Both the position numbers and the translations under genes were made by a program. A stretch of 36,715 bases of DNA from Anaerolineales bacterium. GTDB taxonomy: Bacteria > Chloroflexota > Anaerolineae > Anaerolineales > Villigracilaceae. Below, one piece after another: positions 573-6,454 of this stretch (its first letter is position 1; every line of letters starts with the position of its first letter). The DNA is taken from contig JABWAU010000042.1 of assembly GCA_013360875.1 (NCBI GenBank), positions 1 to 36,715 on the forward strand, written 5' to 3'. The notes under the pieces are model-generated. The model did no database searches. It saw only the letters and a list, made by a program, of their open reading frames with translations, and was not told where the DNA came from.

Positions 573-1325
573 TTATGCCATTTTTCGACGCGTCAACCCG
601 TACACCGCCAGCGCGAACATGAGCGCGGCGGCAATCCACGCGCTGAGGGCAACCGTTGGCGCAGGCGTTTGTTTCACGGCAATTCCCATGAAAGACCAGA
701 CTAGCACGAACAGATACGCTGCGTCCCGCCGCGTGAGAGTCATGAGAACGCCCAAGAGTGAGGCGACAGCCAGCATGATCACAGCCCACGTTTGCGCGGC
801 GATTCCAAACCCATTCCACTCAACCAGATACAGCCAGTCGGTGATGTTCGCCACAGTAGCGACGGTAATCCAGCCGAGGTAGACGCCGAAGGGAATATCC
901 ACGCTCCAGCGTTCGGCGCGGGAGACCGATTCACGATTCACGTTTAGGCGCAGGTAACTGGCAATCAGTAGTCCCAGCAGGGTGAGCATGATGAGCACGC
1001 TCAAGCCGAAGGCGTTGTAGTGCCAGGCGAAGAGCCACGCGGCGTTGGCGAGATTGCTGACGGCAAATAAATATCCAAGTTTGCGCAGGCGGGGATTTTC
1101 TTTTTGCTTCGGTTGAAACTGATAGATGATGAATACGATCCAGCCGAGGTAGATGACGCCCCAGATGGCGAAAACGTAACCGGCGGGGACAAAGTAGACC
1201 TGGAAGCGGTCGGAGATTTCGCCTGTGTTCTGTCCGTTGAGGGGAAGAGCGGAGGCAAGGATGTTGACGGTCAGCGCGAGGGCTGCGCTGAGGAGATTGG
1301 CAAGTTGACGGAGGGTGTCTTTCAT
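573..1325 (-). CDS. TspO/MBR-family (tryptophan-rich sensory protein-like) membrane protein
   Basis: The protein has 250 residues counted from MKDTLRQL. The open frame extends 34 codons further, but AAAGGA lies a proper distance before this ATG and the extension is not hydrophobic. It contains the TspO signature region, seen here as FVPAGYVFAIWGVIYLGW near residues 45-65, followed by several more hydrophobic helices rich in Trp (NAAWLFAWHYNAFG, DWLYLVEWNGFG). It is longer than the usual ~160-residue TspO, so it belongs to the extended TspO-like group. TspO proteins bind porphyrins/tetrapyrroles in membranes and modulate photosynthesis or carotenoid genes in some bacteria (family knowledge). 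It lies 77 bases downstream of crtB and is probably co-transcribed, which fits a light or tetrapyrrole-related role (inference). Confidence 0.75.
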   Translation of the reverse strand: MKDTLRQLANLLSAALALTVNILASALPLNGQNTGEISDRFQVYFVPAGYVFAIWGVIYLGWIVFIIYQFQPKQKENPRLRKLGYLFAVSNLANAAWLFAWHYNAFGLSVLIMLTLLGLLIASYLRLNVNRESVSRAERWSVDIPFGVYLGWITVATVANITDWLYLVEWNGFGIAAQTWAVIMLAVASLLGVLMTLTRRDAAYLFVLVWSFMGIAVKQTPAPTVALSAWIAAALMFALAVYGLTRRKMA

Positions 1326-1402: not shown

Positions 1403-2341
1403 CTATAACGATTTCACCTTCAGCCACAACGACGGAATGCGGCTGAGTTTGCCTATCGCGCTCAGTGAGACGCGGCGGTTGAAGATATTGTAATCATTCT
1501 TTTCGATCTCATCGAGGATGCCCTGATAGAACACGGACGCGGCGCCGATGGCAAGTTGACCTTCGCGTTCGAGCATCTTTACCCCCGCCCACGATTCGGC
1601 ATACAGTTGGCGCGTGCGCTCAATTTGAAATTTCATGAACTGCCGCCAGTTGTCGGTGAGGCGCCCCTCGGCAATGTCCTGTTCACGGATGCCGTAGAAG
1701 ACGAGTTCTTCGCGGGGCAGGTAGAGGCGTCCGTTGCGGAAGTCTTCGCCGATGTCGCGCAGGATGTTGGTCATTTGCAGGGCGACGCCGAGTTTAATGG
1801 CATAGGGCACCGCGTCGCTGGTTTTGAAGCCGACGATGTACATGCTCATCAGTCCCACCGTGGAGGCAACGCCGTAACAATAGGTGGCGAGGTCGTCGAA
1901 GGTTTGGTAACGGGGTTGGATGAGGTCACGGCTGACGCCGTCTATCAGTTGGAGGGCATAGTGACGGGGAATGTGGTATCGGGCGAGGGTATCTGCCCAG
2001 GCGAGGGCAACCCGGTCCTCGGTCGAGGCGGAAGCGGTTTTTGTCACCGTGCGCCAATAGTCGAGTTGGACTTCGCGGTCGTAGTCGGAGGACTCATCCA
2101 CAATGTCATCCACTGTGCGGCAGAAGGCGTAGAGCGCGCGGACGGCGGAGCGTTTCTCCTCTGGCAGGAGCGCGGAGGCCAGATAAAAGGATTTGCTGTG
2201 GGCGCGGGTGACGCTCGCCGCGTGCCTATACGCAGACTGGAGCGCGTGGTCGCCAGCCCAGTATGAAAAGTGCGGACGCGTGGACGGGTGAGGCGCGTGC
2301 CCAGCGAGGTTGATCAAGTGGCGTTCCCATTGTGCCTGCAT
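1403..2341 (-). CDS. crtB: 15-cis-phytoene synthase
   Basis: 312 residues, the normal length for the squalene/phytoene synthase family. The enzyme joins two geranylgeranyl diphosphates head-to-head into phytoene, the first committed carotenoid step, at the membrane surface. Both Asp-rich Mg/diphosphate sites are visible: DDIVDE (residues 78-83, after RALYAFCRTV) and DIGED (196-200, inside TNILRDIGEDFRNGRLYLP). The start is supported by GGAG six bases upstream (AGGAGACCAACATG). It is divergent from crtI and reads into the TspO-like gene. The family also includes squalene synthases (HpnC/HpnD), but the adjacent phytoene desaturase makes phytoene synthase by far the best call. Confidence 0.92.
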   Translation of the reverse strand: MQAQWERHLINLAGHAPHPSTRPHFSYWAGDHALQSAYRHAASVTRAHSKSFYLASALLPEEKRSAVRALYAFCRTVDDIVDESSDYDREVQLDYWRTVTKTASASTEDRVALAWADTLARYHIPRHYALQLIDGVSRDLIQPRYQTFDDLATYCYGVASTVGLMSMYIVGFKTSDAVPYAIKLGVALQMTNILRDIGEDFRNGRLYLPREELVFYGIREQDIAEGRLTDNWRQFMKFQIERTRQLYAESWAGVKMLEREGQLAIGAASVFYQGILDEIEKNDYNIFNRRVSLSAIGKLSRIPSLWLKVKSL

Positions 2342-2393: not shown

Positions 2394-2421
2394 ATTGTAT
2401 GGATTTTGTCGAGATTGTCAA
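2394..2421 (-). promoter_or_regulatory. crtB promoter
   Basis: Minus-strand TTGACA (2416-2421) and TACAAT (2394-2399) are separated by 16 bases. The predicted start leaves a leader of about 45 bases before crtB. The -35 box is part of a repeated TTGNCAA motif described as the operator entry. Confidence 0.75.
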
Positions 2422-2458
2422 GGTTTTGCAAAGAAATATATTGACAAATATTTGACAA
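2415..2458. promoter_or_regulatory. Probable CarH/LitR operator between crtB and crtI
   Basis: Four copies of a 7-base motif are arranged as two pairs, each at an 11-base pitch. TTGTCAA (2415-2421) and TTGCAAA (2426-2432) form one pair; TTGACAA (2441-2447) and TTGACAA (2452-2458) form the other. TTGTCAA is the reverse complement of TTGACAA, so the two halves face opposite promoters. CarH tetramers of Thermus are reported to bind adjacent 11-bp direct repeats over the -35 region, and the carH-like gene lies 1.8 kb downstream. Binding is inferred. Confidence 0.65.
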
Positions 2459-2468
2459 TATGTATAAT
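2441..2468 (+). promoter_or_regulatory. crtI promoter
   Basis: Perfect consensus TTGACA (2441-2446) and TATAAT (2463-2468) are separated by 16 bases. Transcription should begin near 2475, giving an unusually long leader of about 187 bases before crtI. So strong a core promoter normally requires a repressor, consistent with the overlapping repeats. Confidence 0.85.
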
Positions 2469-2661: not shown

Positions 2662-4203
2662 ATGAAACCAACTGCGATTGTGATTGGCGCGGGAATCGGC
2701 GGGATCGCCGCCGCCGCCCGCCTTGCCAAAAACGGATATGACGTGACCGTGCTCGAAAAGGAATCCACCCCAGGCGGACGCTGCAACCAGATCGTCCGCG
2801 ACGGTCACCGCTTCGACATCGGACCGACGCTGTTTCTCATGCCCGAAGTTTGGGAGGAGACCTTTGCCGCCCTCGGCGAACGGATGAGCGACCATCTCGA
2901 CCTGCGCCGCATTGACCCGACCTACAAGGTCCACTTTGAGGACGGCTTGCAACTCGCGCTGACCTCCAACCTCGGCGAGATGCAGACTCAACTGGAAAAA
3001 GTGGAGCCAACCGCCTTTACGGGTTTCCTCAACTACATTGCCGAGGGAATCAGGCATTACAAACTTTCGCTGGAGAAGTTCGTCGGGCGTAACTTCTACA
3101 ACATCTTCGAGTATTTCAGCCTGAAGAACCTGCCGCTCATCGTGCAGCTCAAGGCGCTGCAAAAACACTATGCCAATACGGGGCGCTTCTTCCGTGATGA
3201 ACGGCTGAAAGCCGCCTTCACGTTTCAAAATATGTATCTCGGCTTGAGCCCGTATGATGCCCCCGCCACCTACTCCCTGCTCCAATACACGGAGTTGGCG
3301 GAGGGGGTATGGTATCCCATGGGCGGAATGTATGCCGCCATTCAGGCATTGGTGAAGGTGGCCGAAAAATTGGGCGTGACATTTGTGTATGACGCGCCTG
3401 TGAAAAAGATCAATGTTGGAAAGCGGAAAGTAGAGAGCGTAGAGACGGCAGACGGCAGAGAGTGGATTGCCGATCTTTTCATCGGCAACGCAGACCTGCC
3501 GTATATCTACAAAGAACTGCTGCCCGACCCCGCGCCGGCGAAAAAACTGGACGAGAAACTGTACACCTGCTCCACCATCATGTTCTACTGGGGCGTTGAT
3601 AAGCAGTATCCGCAGATCGCCCATCACAACGTCTTTCTCGGCGGCGATTACAAGGCTTCGTTCGACCAGATCTTCCAAGACCACACCCTGCCCGAAGTGC
3701 CGTCGTTCTACGTCCACGCGCCCGCCCGCACCGACCCCGCCGCCGCGCCCGCAGGGCAGGACACGCTCTACATCCTCGTCCCCGTTGGTCACCTCGACGC
3801 CCGCTCCAAGCAGGATTGGGAGGCGCTGGTCAACCGCGCGCGCGAAACCGTGTTCAACCGCCTTGCCAAAGAGATGGGCGTCACAGACCTGAGGGAGCAC
3901 ATCAAGTTCGAGATCGTGTACCAGCCCCGGGTCTGGAAAGAACGCTTCAATCTCGAAAAAGGCGCGGCGTTTGGGTTGAGTCACAACTTCTGGCAGGTGG
4001 GCTATCTGCGCCCGCACAACCGTCACGCCAAATACAAAAATCTCTACTTCGCCGGCGCATCCACGCATCCCGGAACGGGGCTACCCATTGTGCTGCTTTC
4101 GGCAAAACTCACCACCGAACGGATTCTCAAAGAGGCAAAAACTCAAAAAGCCGAAAATCGAGGGTCAAAATCCATCCTCTCACAGGCAAAAGAGGTACAA
4201 TAA
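2662..4203 (+). CDS. crtI: Phytoene desaturase (CrtI family)
   Basis: 513 residues, typical of the CrtI FAD-dependent family. It introduces double bases into phytoene, normally four to give lycopene, with FAD at the membrane. The N-terminal dinucleotide fold shows GAGIGG (residues 9-14) followed by Glu32 in VTVLEKE and then the GGRC turn. The C-terminal FAD-binding block LYFAGASTHPGTGLPIVLLS (near residue 460) is the CrtI signature. AAGGAG lies five bases before the ATG. The last ~25 residues (KAENRGSKSILSQAKEVQ) are Lys/Ser-rich and look like a drifting tail. First gene of the rightward run; carH follows after 53 bases. Number of desaturation steps cannot be read from sequence. Confidence 0.93.
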   Translation: MKPTAIVIGAGIGGIAAAARLAKNGYDVTVLEKESTPGGRCNQIVRDGHRFDIGPTLFLMPEVWEETFAALGERMSDHLDLRRIDPTYKVHFEDGLQLALTSNLGEMQTQLEKVEPTAFTGFLNYIAEGIRHYKLSLEKFVGRNFYNIFEYFSLKNLPLIVQLKALQKHYANTGRFFRDERLKAAFTFQNMYLGLSPYDAPATYSLLQYTELAEGVWYPMGGMYAAIQALVKVAEKLGVTFVYDAPVKKINVGKRKVESVETADGREWIADLFIGNADLPYIYKELLPDPAPAKKLDEKLYTCSTIMFYWGVDKQYPQIAHHNVFLGGDYKASFDQIFQDHTLPEVPSFYVHAPARTDPAAAPAGQDTLYILVPVGHLDARSKQDWEALVNRARETVFNRLAKEMGVTDLREHIKFEIVYQPRVWKERFNLEKGAAFGLSHNFWQVGYLRPHNRHAKYKNLYFAGASTHPGTGLPIVLLSAKLTTERILKEAKTQKAENRGSKSILSQAKEVQ

Positions 4204-4256: not shown

Positions 4257-5597
4257 ATGTCCATCAGCAAAACCCCCACCTTTAATATCAAGGTTGTGCT
4301 CAATAAAACGGGCATTGCCGCCGACACCCTGCGTGCCTGGGAGCGCCGTTATGGGCTTCCTGTGCCCCAGCGCACCCCCGGCGGACACCGCCTCTATTCC
4401 GAATACGACATCGAGACAATCAAATGGCTGATGGCGCGGCAAGCCGAGGGACTCTCCATCTCCCGCGCGGTGGACTTGTGGAACGAACAAATCGCATCAG
4501 GTTCGGACCCCCTCGACAGGCTCGGGGCAATGCCTCTGGCGGGCGCGGCCAAAACGGAGATTCTCCCCGCGAGCGCGACAAATCTCGAATCCCTCCGCCG
4601 TGATTGGCTGGCCGCTTGCTTTCGTTACGACACGATGGAGGCGGAACACATTTTGAACCAGGCATTTGCCGTCAATTCGGTCGAGATCGTCTGCACGGAT
4701 GTGATACTGCGCGGGCTGTATGAGGTGGGCGAATACTGGCACAAGGGAAAAGCCTCCGTCCAGCAGGAGCATTTCGCTTCGGGCATCGCCACCCGCAGGC
4801 TGGAGTCGCTCATCGGCGCAACCCCGCCTCCCGTCCGCGAAGAGACCGTCATCCTCGCCTGCCCTCCCGATGAATGGCATGTCTTCCCGTTGTTACTGAT
4901 CAACCTTTTCCTCCGTCGGCACGGCTGGAACGTGATCCATCTCGGCGCAAGCGTCCCCGTTGACCAGATGGAGGAGACCATCAAAACCACGAAGCCCAGC
5001 CTAGTCATTCTCTCCGCACAAACGCTGACGACCGCGGTGCATCTGCGTGAAATGGTGCGCGCGCTGAACAAGATTGGAATCCAGGCCGCGTTCGGCGGTC
5101 GCGTCTTCAACAACATCAACGGATTGCCCGCGCGCATCCCAGCCCACTTCCTGGCCAACACCATCCAATTTGCCGTTCCCGCCATCGAAAGCTTGCTTGC
5201 CAGTCCGCGTCCCGCGCCAAAGGAAGAACCGATCTCGCAATCGGCGCTTTCAGCCGCCGCCGCGTTCGCGCACAAACGCGCGCAGGTTGAAAATGCGCTG
5301 AGCGACGCCCTCGCCGCGCGCGGACAGCCCATCGCGTTTCTCGACACCGCCAACCGTTTCCTCGGCGACAGCCTGACCGCCGCGCTCGAACTCGGGGACA
5401 TCTCGTTTCTGTCCACAGACATGGCATGGATTGCCCACCTGCTCATCGGGCATAACGTCCCGACCGCCATCCTGCCGATCTATCTCGACGTTTACGCGCA
5501 CGCCGTTGACCAGGTGTTGAACGGCGGCGGAAAAATCATCAGCGACTGGCTGAAACTCCAGGCCGCGTCGCTTCAAACCAATTGGAATGAACTATGA
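4257..5597 (+). CDS. carH: CarH/LitR-type B12-dependent light-responsive repressor
   Basis: 446 residues. Residues ~8-80 are a MerR-type winged helix (TGIAADTLRAWERRYGLPVP, then GGHRLY). Residues ~108-185 are the helical B12 cap with the W-x9-EH motif: W161, H162, E171, H172. These correspond to the adenosyl-capping Trp, the photolytic His ligand and the EH pair known in Thermus CarH. Residues ~195-315 are a cobalamin-binding fold with PDEWHVFP, where H208 should be the lower ligand; Pro replaces the usual Gly of the E/D-x-H-x-x-G signature. In known CarH, adenosylcobalamin tetramers repress crt genes until light breaks the Co-C bond. The linker at residues 84-92 is encoded by a dispersed palindrome. 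Residues ~320-446 are an extra C-terminal region I cannot assign. Its stop overlaps the next start (ATGA). Confidence 0.88.
   Translation: MSISKTPTFNIKVVLNKTGIAADTLRAWERRYGLPVPQRTPGGHRLYSEYDIETIKWLMARQAEGLSISRAVDLWNEQIASGSDPLDRLGAMPLAGAAKTEILPASATNLESLRRDWLAACFRYDTMEAEHILNQAFAVNSVEIVCTDVILRGLYEVGEYWHKGKASVQQEHFASGIATRRLESLIGATPPPVREETVILACPPDEWHVFPLLLINLFLRRHGWNVIHLGASVPVDQMEETIKTTKPSLVILSAQTLTTAVHLREMVRALNKIGIQAAFGGRVFNNINGLPARIPAHFLANTIQFAVPAIESLLASPRPAPKEEPISQSALSAAAAFAHKRAQVENALSDALAARGQPIAFLDTANRFLGDSLTAALELGDISFLSTDMAWIAHLLIGHNVPTAILPIYLDVYAHAVDQVLNGGGKIISDWLKLQAASLQTNWNEL
4508..4528. repeat. Dispersed palindrome in the carH linker
   Basis: CCCCTCGACAGGCTCGGGG matches a short imperfect palindrome (CCCTTCGAC-AGG-CTCAGGG type) that is dispersed in many bacterial genomes. 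It encodes part of SDPLDRLGAM between the DNA-binding and B12 domains. A relative lies in the 3' end of the photolyase gene. Confidence 0.5.
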
Positions 5598-6454
5598 AAA
5601 ACCGCACTTCCCTCCTCATCTTCCCCATCCTCATTCTCATCGGCTGCCTCGTCGCGCTGGCAGGAAGTCAGGGCGGCGCCACGCTCGGCGGCTTCCCCGT
5701 CTTTGCGCTGCTCGTCGCCCTTGCCTTCATCATCCAATGGCTGGCGTTCATCCCTGCCTACCTCTTGCAAACCGAAAAATTCTACGACTTGACGGGCAGC
5801 CTCACCTACCTGACCGTAACCGGCGCCGCTCTGGCGTTCAGCCCCAACCTGGACACCCGCTCCATTCTGCTGGCAGCGCTGGTCATCATTTGGGCGCTGC
5901 GGCTCGGAACCTTCCTATTCAGCCGCATTCGCAAGGCGGGCAAGGACGACCGCTTCGATGAAATCAAACCCTCCTTCATTCGCTTCCTGAACGCCTGGAC
6001 GATTCAAGGCTTGTGGGTGACCTTCACCGCCGCTGCCGCATTAGTGGCCATCACTTCGTCTGTGCACAAGGAACCGGATGCCTTTGCCGTCATCGGTTTT
6101 CTCATCTGGGTTTTCGGCTTTGCCTTTGAAGTCATCGCCGACTCGCAGAAAAGCCGCTTCAACGCGGACCCCGCCAACAAGGGCAAATTCATCCAAAGCG
6201 GATTGTGGTCGCGCTCGCGGCATCCGAACTACTTCGGCGAGATTGTGCTGTGGATCGGCGTCGCCCTCATCGCCATCCCCGTTTTGCAAGGCTGGCAGTG
6301 GGTCGCGATGATCTCCCCGCTGTTCGTGACTCTGCTCCTCACCCGCGTCAGCGGCATCCCGCTGCTGGAGAAAAAAGCCGACGCCAAATGGGGCGGTCAG
6401 GCGGAGTACGAAGAGTACAAGAAGAACACGCCTGTGTTGATCCCGCGGTTATAA
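5594..6454 (+). CDS. DUF1295 / steroid-5-alpha-reductase-like membrane protein
   Basis: 286 residues with about seven hydrophobic segments. The C-terminal part carries the conserved block SGLWSRSRHPNYFGEIVLWIG (near residues 200-220) and a late EKKADAKWGGQAEYEEYKKN segment, both typical of DUF1295 and the wider ICMT/5-alpha-reductase superfamily. In that superfamily the RHPNY region binds a nicotinamide or S-adenosylmethionine cofactor (family knowledge). Its substrate is unknown; a lipid or carotenoid-related reduction is possible from its place after carH but is inference. The start overlaps the carH stop by four bases, so it is translationally coupled to the regulator. Confidence 0.75.
   Translation: MKNRTSLLIFPILILIGCLVALAGSQGGATLGGFPVFALLVALAFIIQWLAFIPAYLLQTEKFYDLTGSLTYLTVTGAALAFSPNLDTRSILLAALVIIWALRLGTFLFSRIRKAGKDDRFDEIKPSFIRFLNAWTIQGLWVTFTAAAALVAITSSVHKEPDAFAVIGFLIWVFGFAFEVIADSQKSRFNADPANKGKFIQSGLWSRSRHPNYFGEIVLWIGVALIAIPVLQGWQWVAMISPLFVTLLLTRVSGIPLLEKKADAKWGGQAEYEEYKKNTPVLIPRL

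Follow-up and report, generated by a model that had tools for sequence, protein, structure and literature searches.

A probable two-module CarH-type operator over divergent carotenoid promoters of an Anaerolineales bacterium, near the gene of a MerR-fused photocobilin-like regulator

Operators of the light-responsive regulator CarH, known from Thermus, Bacillus megaterium and Myxococcales, combine tandem 11-bp repeats with a MerR-B12 protein. According to the excerpted text of PMC9304148, the repeat has the form nnnnTnnACAn and lies in tandem, at 11-bp pitch, over the -35 or -10 of carotenoid promoters; in mapped operators at least three repeats (DR, or dr where degenerate) follow one another on the same strand, and divergent promoters are known in Sorangiineae. 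The same excerpted text describes a dimeric CarH of Cystobacter that requires two tandem repeats per dimer and whose operator comprises three repeats plus degenerate ones, occupied by two dimers; no globin domain is mentioned for it there. Photocobilins, represented by SasPcob (8J2W/8J2X) and AbPcob (8J2Y), carry a globin-like domain of five helices behind the B12 domain, with W, EH and ExH motifs. SasPcob is reported to dimerize in the dark and to be monomeric in the light, and in the excerpted text of PMC10979010 photocobilins are shown to control an enzyme, a role in transcription being only proposed. Finally, CtMerR of Chloracidobacterium (8JBS/8JBT) is a light-responsive MerR-B12 protein (PMC11796333, excerpted text), the solved part of which is the B12-binding domain.

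The window examined here, i.e., the whole 36,715-nucleotide stretch of DNA, shares with CarH systems the tandem 11-bp repeats, the MerR-B12 regulator gene and the divergent promoters. It differs from the runs of three to five repeats in those operators (PMC9304148, excerpted text) in having two opposed modules of two half-sites, one per promoter. It further differs in the position of the second crtI half-site, which lies within the promoter spacer, and in a FAS1 lipoprotein gene that forms a probable second conserved target. We regard it as quite probable that the crtB-crtI gap holds a two-module operator of the 446-aa regulator, which would bring crtB and crtI, with a small regulon, under light- and B12-controlled repression.

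Anatomy of the crtB-crtI gap

The genes and promoter elements concerned are the following, with the evidence in brackets.

573..1325, minus strand: membrane protein gene of probable TspO-like fold, downstream of crtB (model pLDDT 87.7, structural alignment)
1403..2341, minus strand: crtB-like gene of the phytoene/squalene synthase family (PF00494, 265 bits)
2394..2399, minus strand: crtB -10, TACAAT (sequence)
2396..2401, minus strand: degenerate half-site CATACA over the crtB -10, 11 bp from TCGACA (register analysis)
2407..2412, minus strand: TCGACA, an extra half-site within the spacer of the crtB promoter, at 9 bp from the half-site over the -35 (register analysis)
2416..2421, minus strand: crtB -35, TTGACA, also a half-site of the minus pair (sequence, gap comparison)
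2427..2432, minus strand: TTTGCA (TnnRCA), the half-site of the minus pair that lies 11 bp upstream of the crtB -35 (gap comparison)
2441..2446, plus strand: crtI -35, TTGACA (TnnACA), also half-site 1 of the plus pair (sequence; anchor for 51 gaps)
2452..2457, plus strand: half-site 2 of the plus pair, TTGACA, in the crtI promoter spacer, 11 bp from the -35 (conservation and control promoters)
2463..2468, plus strand: crtI -10, TATAAT, 22 bp from the -35 and in the same 11-bp register (sequence, gap comparison)
2662..4203, plus strand: crtI of the phytoene desaturase family, preceding the regulator gene (TIGR02734, 508.8 bits)
4257..5597, plus strand: 446-aa regulator gene, just downstream of crtI (Pfam, structure model, Foldseek)

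The crtB-like gene did not reach the NCBIfam CrtB equivalog cut-off. A second crtI-like gene (51% identity) lies on contig C130 of the same genome (5469-6983, minus strand); it has two internal stop codons and is perhaps a pseudogene.

The membrane protein encoded at 573-1325 gave no credible match in Pfam or NCBIfam, the best scores being insignificant and from unrelated families. Comparison of its model by VIA-align placed seven TSPO chains on top (Z 10.3-11.7), with the next row at 8.1. The best of these alignments (Z 11.7, rmsd 3.8) covered 147 residues of a 155-residue chain, where a Z below about 13 can reflect a common helical-bundle arrangement, and the Foldseek E-value was only 0.6. 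On these structural comparisons the protein is probably of TspO-like fold; its homologues occur in 16 other loci among those searched.

Both promoters described in the earlier note were recovered at their positions, TTGACA (2421-2416)-N16-TACAAT (2399-2394) on the minus strand and TTGACA (2441-2446)-N16-TATAAT (2463-2468) on the plus strand, as was the 11-bp pitch within each pair (TTGTCAA 2415-2421 with TTGCAAA 2426-2432; TTGACAA 2441-2447 with TTGACAA 2452-2458). Two of its details needed revision. The repeats had been said to overlap both -35 boxes, which holds for one member of each pair; the second plus-strand repeat lies in the spacer and the second minus-strand repeat lies upstream of the -35. 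The pairs had also been read as TTGNCAA repeats, and it is TnnACA/TnnRCA that is the conserved half-site. With a 16-bp spacer, the -35 and -10 are exactly 22 bp (2 x 11) apart, which puts TATAAT into the register of the plus pair. The minus strand holds a further pair at 11-bp pitch that the earlier note did not include (TCGACA 2412-2407 and CATACA 2401-2396), 9 bp from the -35 repeat, so that the half-sites on this strand run TTTGCA (2432), TTGACA (2421) and, after 9 bp, TCGACA (2412) and CATACA (2401).

The two pairs thus form two modules in opposite orientation, one per promoter. Counted by strand, each promoter has two conserved half-sites in tandem; on the plus strand the -10 keeps the register and makes a poor third, and the additional half-sites of the minus strand are offset by 9 bp and seldom conserved. 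The repeats at 2441 and 2452 match TnnACA exactly at 11-bp pitch, and the repeats overlap the -35 or -10 of carotenoid promoters, as do those of CarH operators.

At 326 bp, the crtB-crtI gap of the window is unusually long (137-266 bp in 52 of 54 relatives), most of the excess being crtI leader. This leader (2469-2661) contains inverted repeats at 2475-2488/2558-2571 (14 nt), 2506-2517/2527-2538 and 2584-2610/2615-2641 (27 nt, 78%), and it may hold small inserted elements.

Conservation and specificity of the half-sites

Relatives of the regulator were found in 76 of 101 genomes at E <= 0.001, a count that includes weak single-domain matches, and in 198 of 400 genomes of the order at E <= 1e-30; relatives of crtI were found in 96 of 400 genomes at E <= 1e-150. 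From the regulator matches listed and the crtI matches, 92 stretches were taken (one repeating an earlier locus), which yielded 55 crtB-crtI gaps, including that of the window. Both anchors were present in 51 of these, which were counted. The four gaps left out were those of L084 and L085, which have no TAnnnT at the expected -10 distance yet contain TTGACA-11-TAGACA; of L094, where crtB lies in tandem upstream and is not divergent; and of L114, which has no TTGTCA and has AGAGCA at the spacer site. The relatives share descent, and the gap counts therefore overstate independence.

Exactly 11 bp past the crtI -35, within the spacer, TnnACA was present in 41 of the 51 gaps, the looser T..RCR in 45 and the T in all 51; at all other lags between +1 and +19, TnnACA was absent from these gaps. 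Column information for this half-site was 2.00 (T), 0.37 (n), 1.11 (n), 1.60 (A), 1.40 (C) and 1.54 (A) bits. The promoter spacer was 16 bp in 49/51 gaps, the window among them. The +11 half-site occurred in at least one sequence of 12 of the 14 genera; this comparison of crtB-crtI gaps between related genomes, which had been proposed as a check of the 11-bp pitch, bears the pitch out. Loss of the motif in relatives with carH beside crtI, named earlier as what would speak against an operator, is mostly not observed, T..RCR at +11 being kept in the 45 gaps given above. The six exceptions belong to genus g49 (5/5 gaps; TAGATT or TTGATT) and to the single genome of g86 (TAGAAA). Across a further 36 loci, mostly from Chloroflexi or Anaerolineales MAGs and partly from the same assemblies, 23 gaps were found, 20 of which had TTGACA-N5-TnnRCA-N5-TAnnnT.

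On the crtB side, the upstream half-site was present as T..RCR in 33/51 gaps, strict TnnACA occurring in only 8/51. The extra half-sites were not general, with TnnACA in 7/51 gaps at lag +9 and in 10/51 at lag +20. The distance between the two modules was 14, 23-27 or 33-38 bp and in none of the 51 gaps 28-32 bp, an avoidance suggesting that two bound proteins may lie face to face. Helical phasing of the modules at period 11 (R = 0.78 over 31 genus-distance pairs) is only suggestive, as periods of 10, 10.5, 12 and 13 give 0.70-0.77.

Control promoters were examined for the same feature. TnnACA at +11 was present in 2 of 147 distinct TTGACA-N16-TATAAT promoters, these being the distinct ones of 150 listed matches, all from other families of the order, outside family f1. 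At 35 further TTGACA-N16-TAnnnT places in the loci compared, TnnACA at +11 occurred in 4 and T..RCR in 7, and all 7 were crtI or carH promoters (L062-L064 with L131, L111, L128, L135, L144).

Chance expectation depends on how strictly the pair is written. TTGNCAA-N4-TTGNCAA with at most one mismatch has two matches in the window, both at the operator (shuffle mean 0.10; 0/100 shuffles reach 2), and without mismatch it occurs at a single place in the 3,987,936-base genome; with one mismatch there are 6 genome places versus 7 for the reversed control pattern. Relaxed TnnRCA-N5-TnnRCA is not unusual in the window (6 matches; shuffle mean 2.84; 9/100 shuffles reach 6). The case therefore rests on position and conservation and not on the motif by itself. 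As a genome-wide detector the relaxed pair was discarded, since it gave 21 places in this genome and 21 for the reversed control and is useless without position. A promoter-plus-half-site pattern with up to two mismatches gave 28 places versus 20 for the control, with zero mismatches only at the crtI site. The narrower pair TNNRCAAAANCTNNACA matched one place in the genome, the crtB site (control 0), and did not recover the C105 site described below.

Half-site pairs were also associated with the regulator gene outside the crtB-crtI context. Among 89 loci with this gene, crtI lies directly upstream on the same strand in 54 and the arrangement differs in 35. A TnnACA pair at 11 bp was present within 300 bp upstream of carH in 20 of these 35 loci (shuffle mean 0.41, maximum 2), and the strict pair was not found there in the other 15; the next best lag between 7 and 23 was 13 bp (7/35). 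Where crtI precedes carH, the stretch upstream of carH is largely crtI coding DNA and a pair was present in 3/54. In two genomes (G297 and G305; loci L062 and L064) the operator lies between the regulator gene and a divergent TspO-like gene. Plain CarH-like proteins that carry no extra domain and are encoded divergently from crtI (L116-L120) likewise have TnnACA 11-bp pairs in 4/5 loci (L116, L117, L119, L120), with no strict pair at L118. The half-site code thus seems common to plain CarH-like and extended regulators, judging from these upstream sequences.

The half-sites fit the published CarH repeat, their pitch recurs across genera and pairs precede the regulator gene in other gene contexts as well. 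By its sequence, the segment is a probable CarH-type operator over both crt promoters, as had been proposed.

A FAS1 lipoprotein gene as a second probable target

The promoter-plus-half-site search of the window's own genome returned, with two mismatches, a crtB-like composite upstream of a FAS1 gene on contig C105, a site that we accepted only after its conservation upstream of FAS1 was seen.

C105 (locus L158), 4938-5924, minus strand: two-domain FAS1 lipoprotein gene (PF02469, 266 bits), with four TnnRCA half-sites in its promoter

Orthologues at E <= 1e-20 were found in 8 of the 37 family-f1 genomes searched. Within 120 bp upstream of the gene, every one of the eight shows a TnnRCA pair at 11-bp pitch (shuffles: mean 0.06, maximum 2 of 8), and all eight genomes have a full-length regulator. 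In FAS1 promoters half-site pairs also occur downstream of the -10. Upstream of the FAS1 gene at L168, four TnnACA half-sites (TAGACA, TGGACA, TGGACA, TAAACA) lie at exact 11-bp pitch between promoter and start codon.

A search of 150 genomes of the family with a composite pattern built from crtB and FAS1 promoters found 34 matches, spread over 30 genomes, versus 2 for the reversed pattern. Fifteen matches precede FAS1, 10 precede crtB, one precedes a TspO-like gene divergent from carH, and 8 lie elsewhere or have no gene assignment; 18 were read as sequence, 14 were placed by coordinates and 2 (G008:C162, G338:C118) were left out. Among the 18 read, four (L193, L195, L204, L212) stand before other genes and two (L202, L213) run into a contig edge. 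At L211 the FAS1 gene is divergent from a TspO-like gene. AstaP, as described in excerpted literature, is a carotenoid-binding FAS1 protein of algae. These promoter sequences suggest that the FAS1 lipoprotein gene is a probable second light-controlled gene and that the operator class probably has a small light regulon beyond the crt genes.

The regulator and its probable mode of action

The regulator has a MerR HTH domain (residues about 10-74), a B12-binding four-helix plus Rossmann part (about 115-284) and a five-helix globin-like C-terminal domain (about 328-445). Its Pfam matches are those of a CarH protein (PF13411, PF02607, PF02310), and its AlphaFold2 model (mean pLDDT 87) has five C-terminal helices, as expected of a photocobilin module. 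In a Foldseek search of the PDB, ranks 1-4 were photocobilins 8j2w (E 1.4e-15, TM 0.84 by target), 8j2y (1.7e-15, TM 0.83) and 8j2x, followed at rank 5 by CarH on DNA (5c8e; E 2.5e-15) with a lower TM of 0.64. By a profile of 30 regulator sequences, CarH was best by score and photocobilins were matched over profile positions 138-418. The NCBIfam CarH equivalog NF052513 scored 143.5 bits over residues 8-299, below its cut-off of 400. The structural match to CtMerR is at 21-22% identity over about 220-235 columns. Searching the PDB by phmmer with the C-terminal domain alone gave one match (E 0.51), which was not credible; photocobilins were recovered by the full-length search, the profile and the fold comparison.

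Residues W161, E171, H172, E206 and H208 are invariant in the 30 aligned sequences, in agreement with the Wx9EH and E/DxH motifs. Three of the four light-responsive signatures in the excerpted text of PMC11796333 are present (GxxW, EH, GxxxP); the fourth, GxxH, is not matched in the window protein, where Asp205 replaces the Gly. His162 follows the Trp of Wx9EH in the window protein, at the place of the bis-His light-state ligand, and is Tyr in most of the other 29 sequences. The 'EWH' and 'LGASVP' of SasPcob are found in the regulator too. Trp296 of the SasPcob biliverdin pocket aligns with invariant W391, and Asp270 falls beside a three-residue gap, opposite no conserved Asp (both by hand numbering from the alignment); AbPcob likewise has no counterpart of Asp270 (PMC10979010, excerpted text). 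Apart from lacking a clear counterpart of this Asp, the regulator differs from photocobilins in its added N-terminal MerR DNA-binding domain and in a genome with no PF01126 match. This heme oxygenase family, the only one searched, had no match in the window's own genome (96.47% complete) and matches in 2 of 101 genomes overall. One of these two genomes (G086) belongs to genus g49, which has lost the ACA of the crtI spacer half-site.

The earlier note had taken the regulator to be simply the local CarH. According to its model, it instead joins a MerR domain to a module like that of photocobilins, with a B12 domain and a five-helix globin, and is not a plain CarH, given the best structural matches and the equivalog score. 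The note's one or two tetramers, which keep some probability, find no support in the generally conserved half-sites, which number two per promoter and not three or four, or in the top matches, which are photocobilins, reported as dark dimers. Two tandem half-sites per promoter suggest instead one dimer per promoter, in place of a tetramer on three or four repeats.

We propose that each module consists of two TnnRCA half-sites at 11-bp pitch, one module lying over the crtI -35 and spacer and the other over the crtB -35 and the DNA just upstream. In the dark, AdoCbl-loaded regulator would form dimers whose two DNA-binding domains would each take one of the tandem half-sites, so that RNA polymerase would be blocked at the two promoters. 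On exposure to green or blue light the Co-C bond would be cleaved and the dimer would fall apart, freeing the two promoters. Expression of crtB with the TspO-like gene would follow in one direction and, in the other, that of crtI and the regulator's own gene, which would be transcribed together and provide negative feedback. The same type of half-site pair over the FAS1 lipoprotein promoter would extend this control to a small light regulon.

Three other explanations of the segment were weighed. It could consist of promoter elements only, i.e., two TTGACA -35 boxes with AT-rich filler and a coincidental 11-bp pitch, since the -35 of each module falls within one of its repeats, relaxed pairs are not unusual in the window and, with one mismatch allowed, the TTGNCAA pair shows no excess over its reversed control in the genome. 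The spacer half-site lies outside both hexamers, however, and yet keeps its T in 51/51 and TnnACA in 41/51 gaps versus 2/147 control promoters, and FAS1 promoters carry pairs downstream of the -10 too; the control promoters led us to reject this reading, which is extremely improbable. A classical MerR-type activator that binds between -35 and -10 and distorts the promoters would account for the N-terminal MerR domain and for the one half-site found in that position. Classical MerR activators act at long spacers (19-20 bp) with a palindrome centered in the spacer, whereas the spacer here is 16 bp in 49/51 gaps and the half-sites are direct repeats; on spacer length and repeat orientation it was rejected as very improbable.

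A canonical CarH would, as in Thermus or Bacillus, cover the array with one or two AdoCbl tetramers that each take three or four repeats, and the C-terminal domain would be a passive extension. In the window the minus strand does offer as many as four half-sites (2432-2396) and the plus strand two more. Module distances group at 23-27 and 33-38 bp and avoid 28-32 bp in all 51 gaps, which looks as if bound proteins touched and would fit a bridging tetramer. Plain CarH proteins of the same family also have TnnACA 11-bp pairs (4/5 loci), 5c8e stands close behind the photocobilins by Foldseek E-value, and CarH leads by sequence profile. Against this, only two half-sites per promoter are generally conserved (lag +9, 7/51; lag +20, 10/51), the top structural matches are photocobilins, which are dark dimers according to the excerpted text of PMC10979010, and the CarH equivalog model reaches 143.5 of the 400 bits at its cut-off. 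We consider a canonical CarH unlikely, though well short of negligible, and favor the two-module operator of the photocobilin-like regulator.

An extension of this two-module reading is a two-color repressor, in which B12 (green/blue) and a bilin (red) would together switch crtB, crtI, the regulator's own gene and the TspO-like and FAS1 genes, the FAS1 protein binding the carotenoid made. As a PF01126 heme oxygenase was not detected, another route would have to supply the bilin, possibly the TspO-like protein acting on protoporphyrin; a reaction of this kind is known from a bacterial TspO, and the literature search returned no paper on it. We regard this extension as improbable.

CarH operators and photocobilins are each known; what we did not see in the literature searched is their combination, a photocobilin-like protein bearing a DNA-binding domain together with its probable operator and regulon. 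The search returned no paper tying a photocobilin or photoglobin to a promoter, and a 2022 photoglobin paper that lay outside its scope may tabulate a MerR-photoglobin architecture. The locus offers a MerR-fused photocobilin-like member together with its probable target promoters, a half-site code and a second conserved target, which makes light-controlled transcription by this class testable. The prediction of two half-sites and one dimer per promoter separates the regulator from tetrameric CarH, and the compact promoter could act as a green, perhaps red, light switch.
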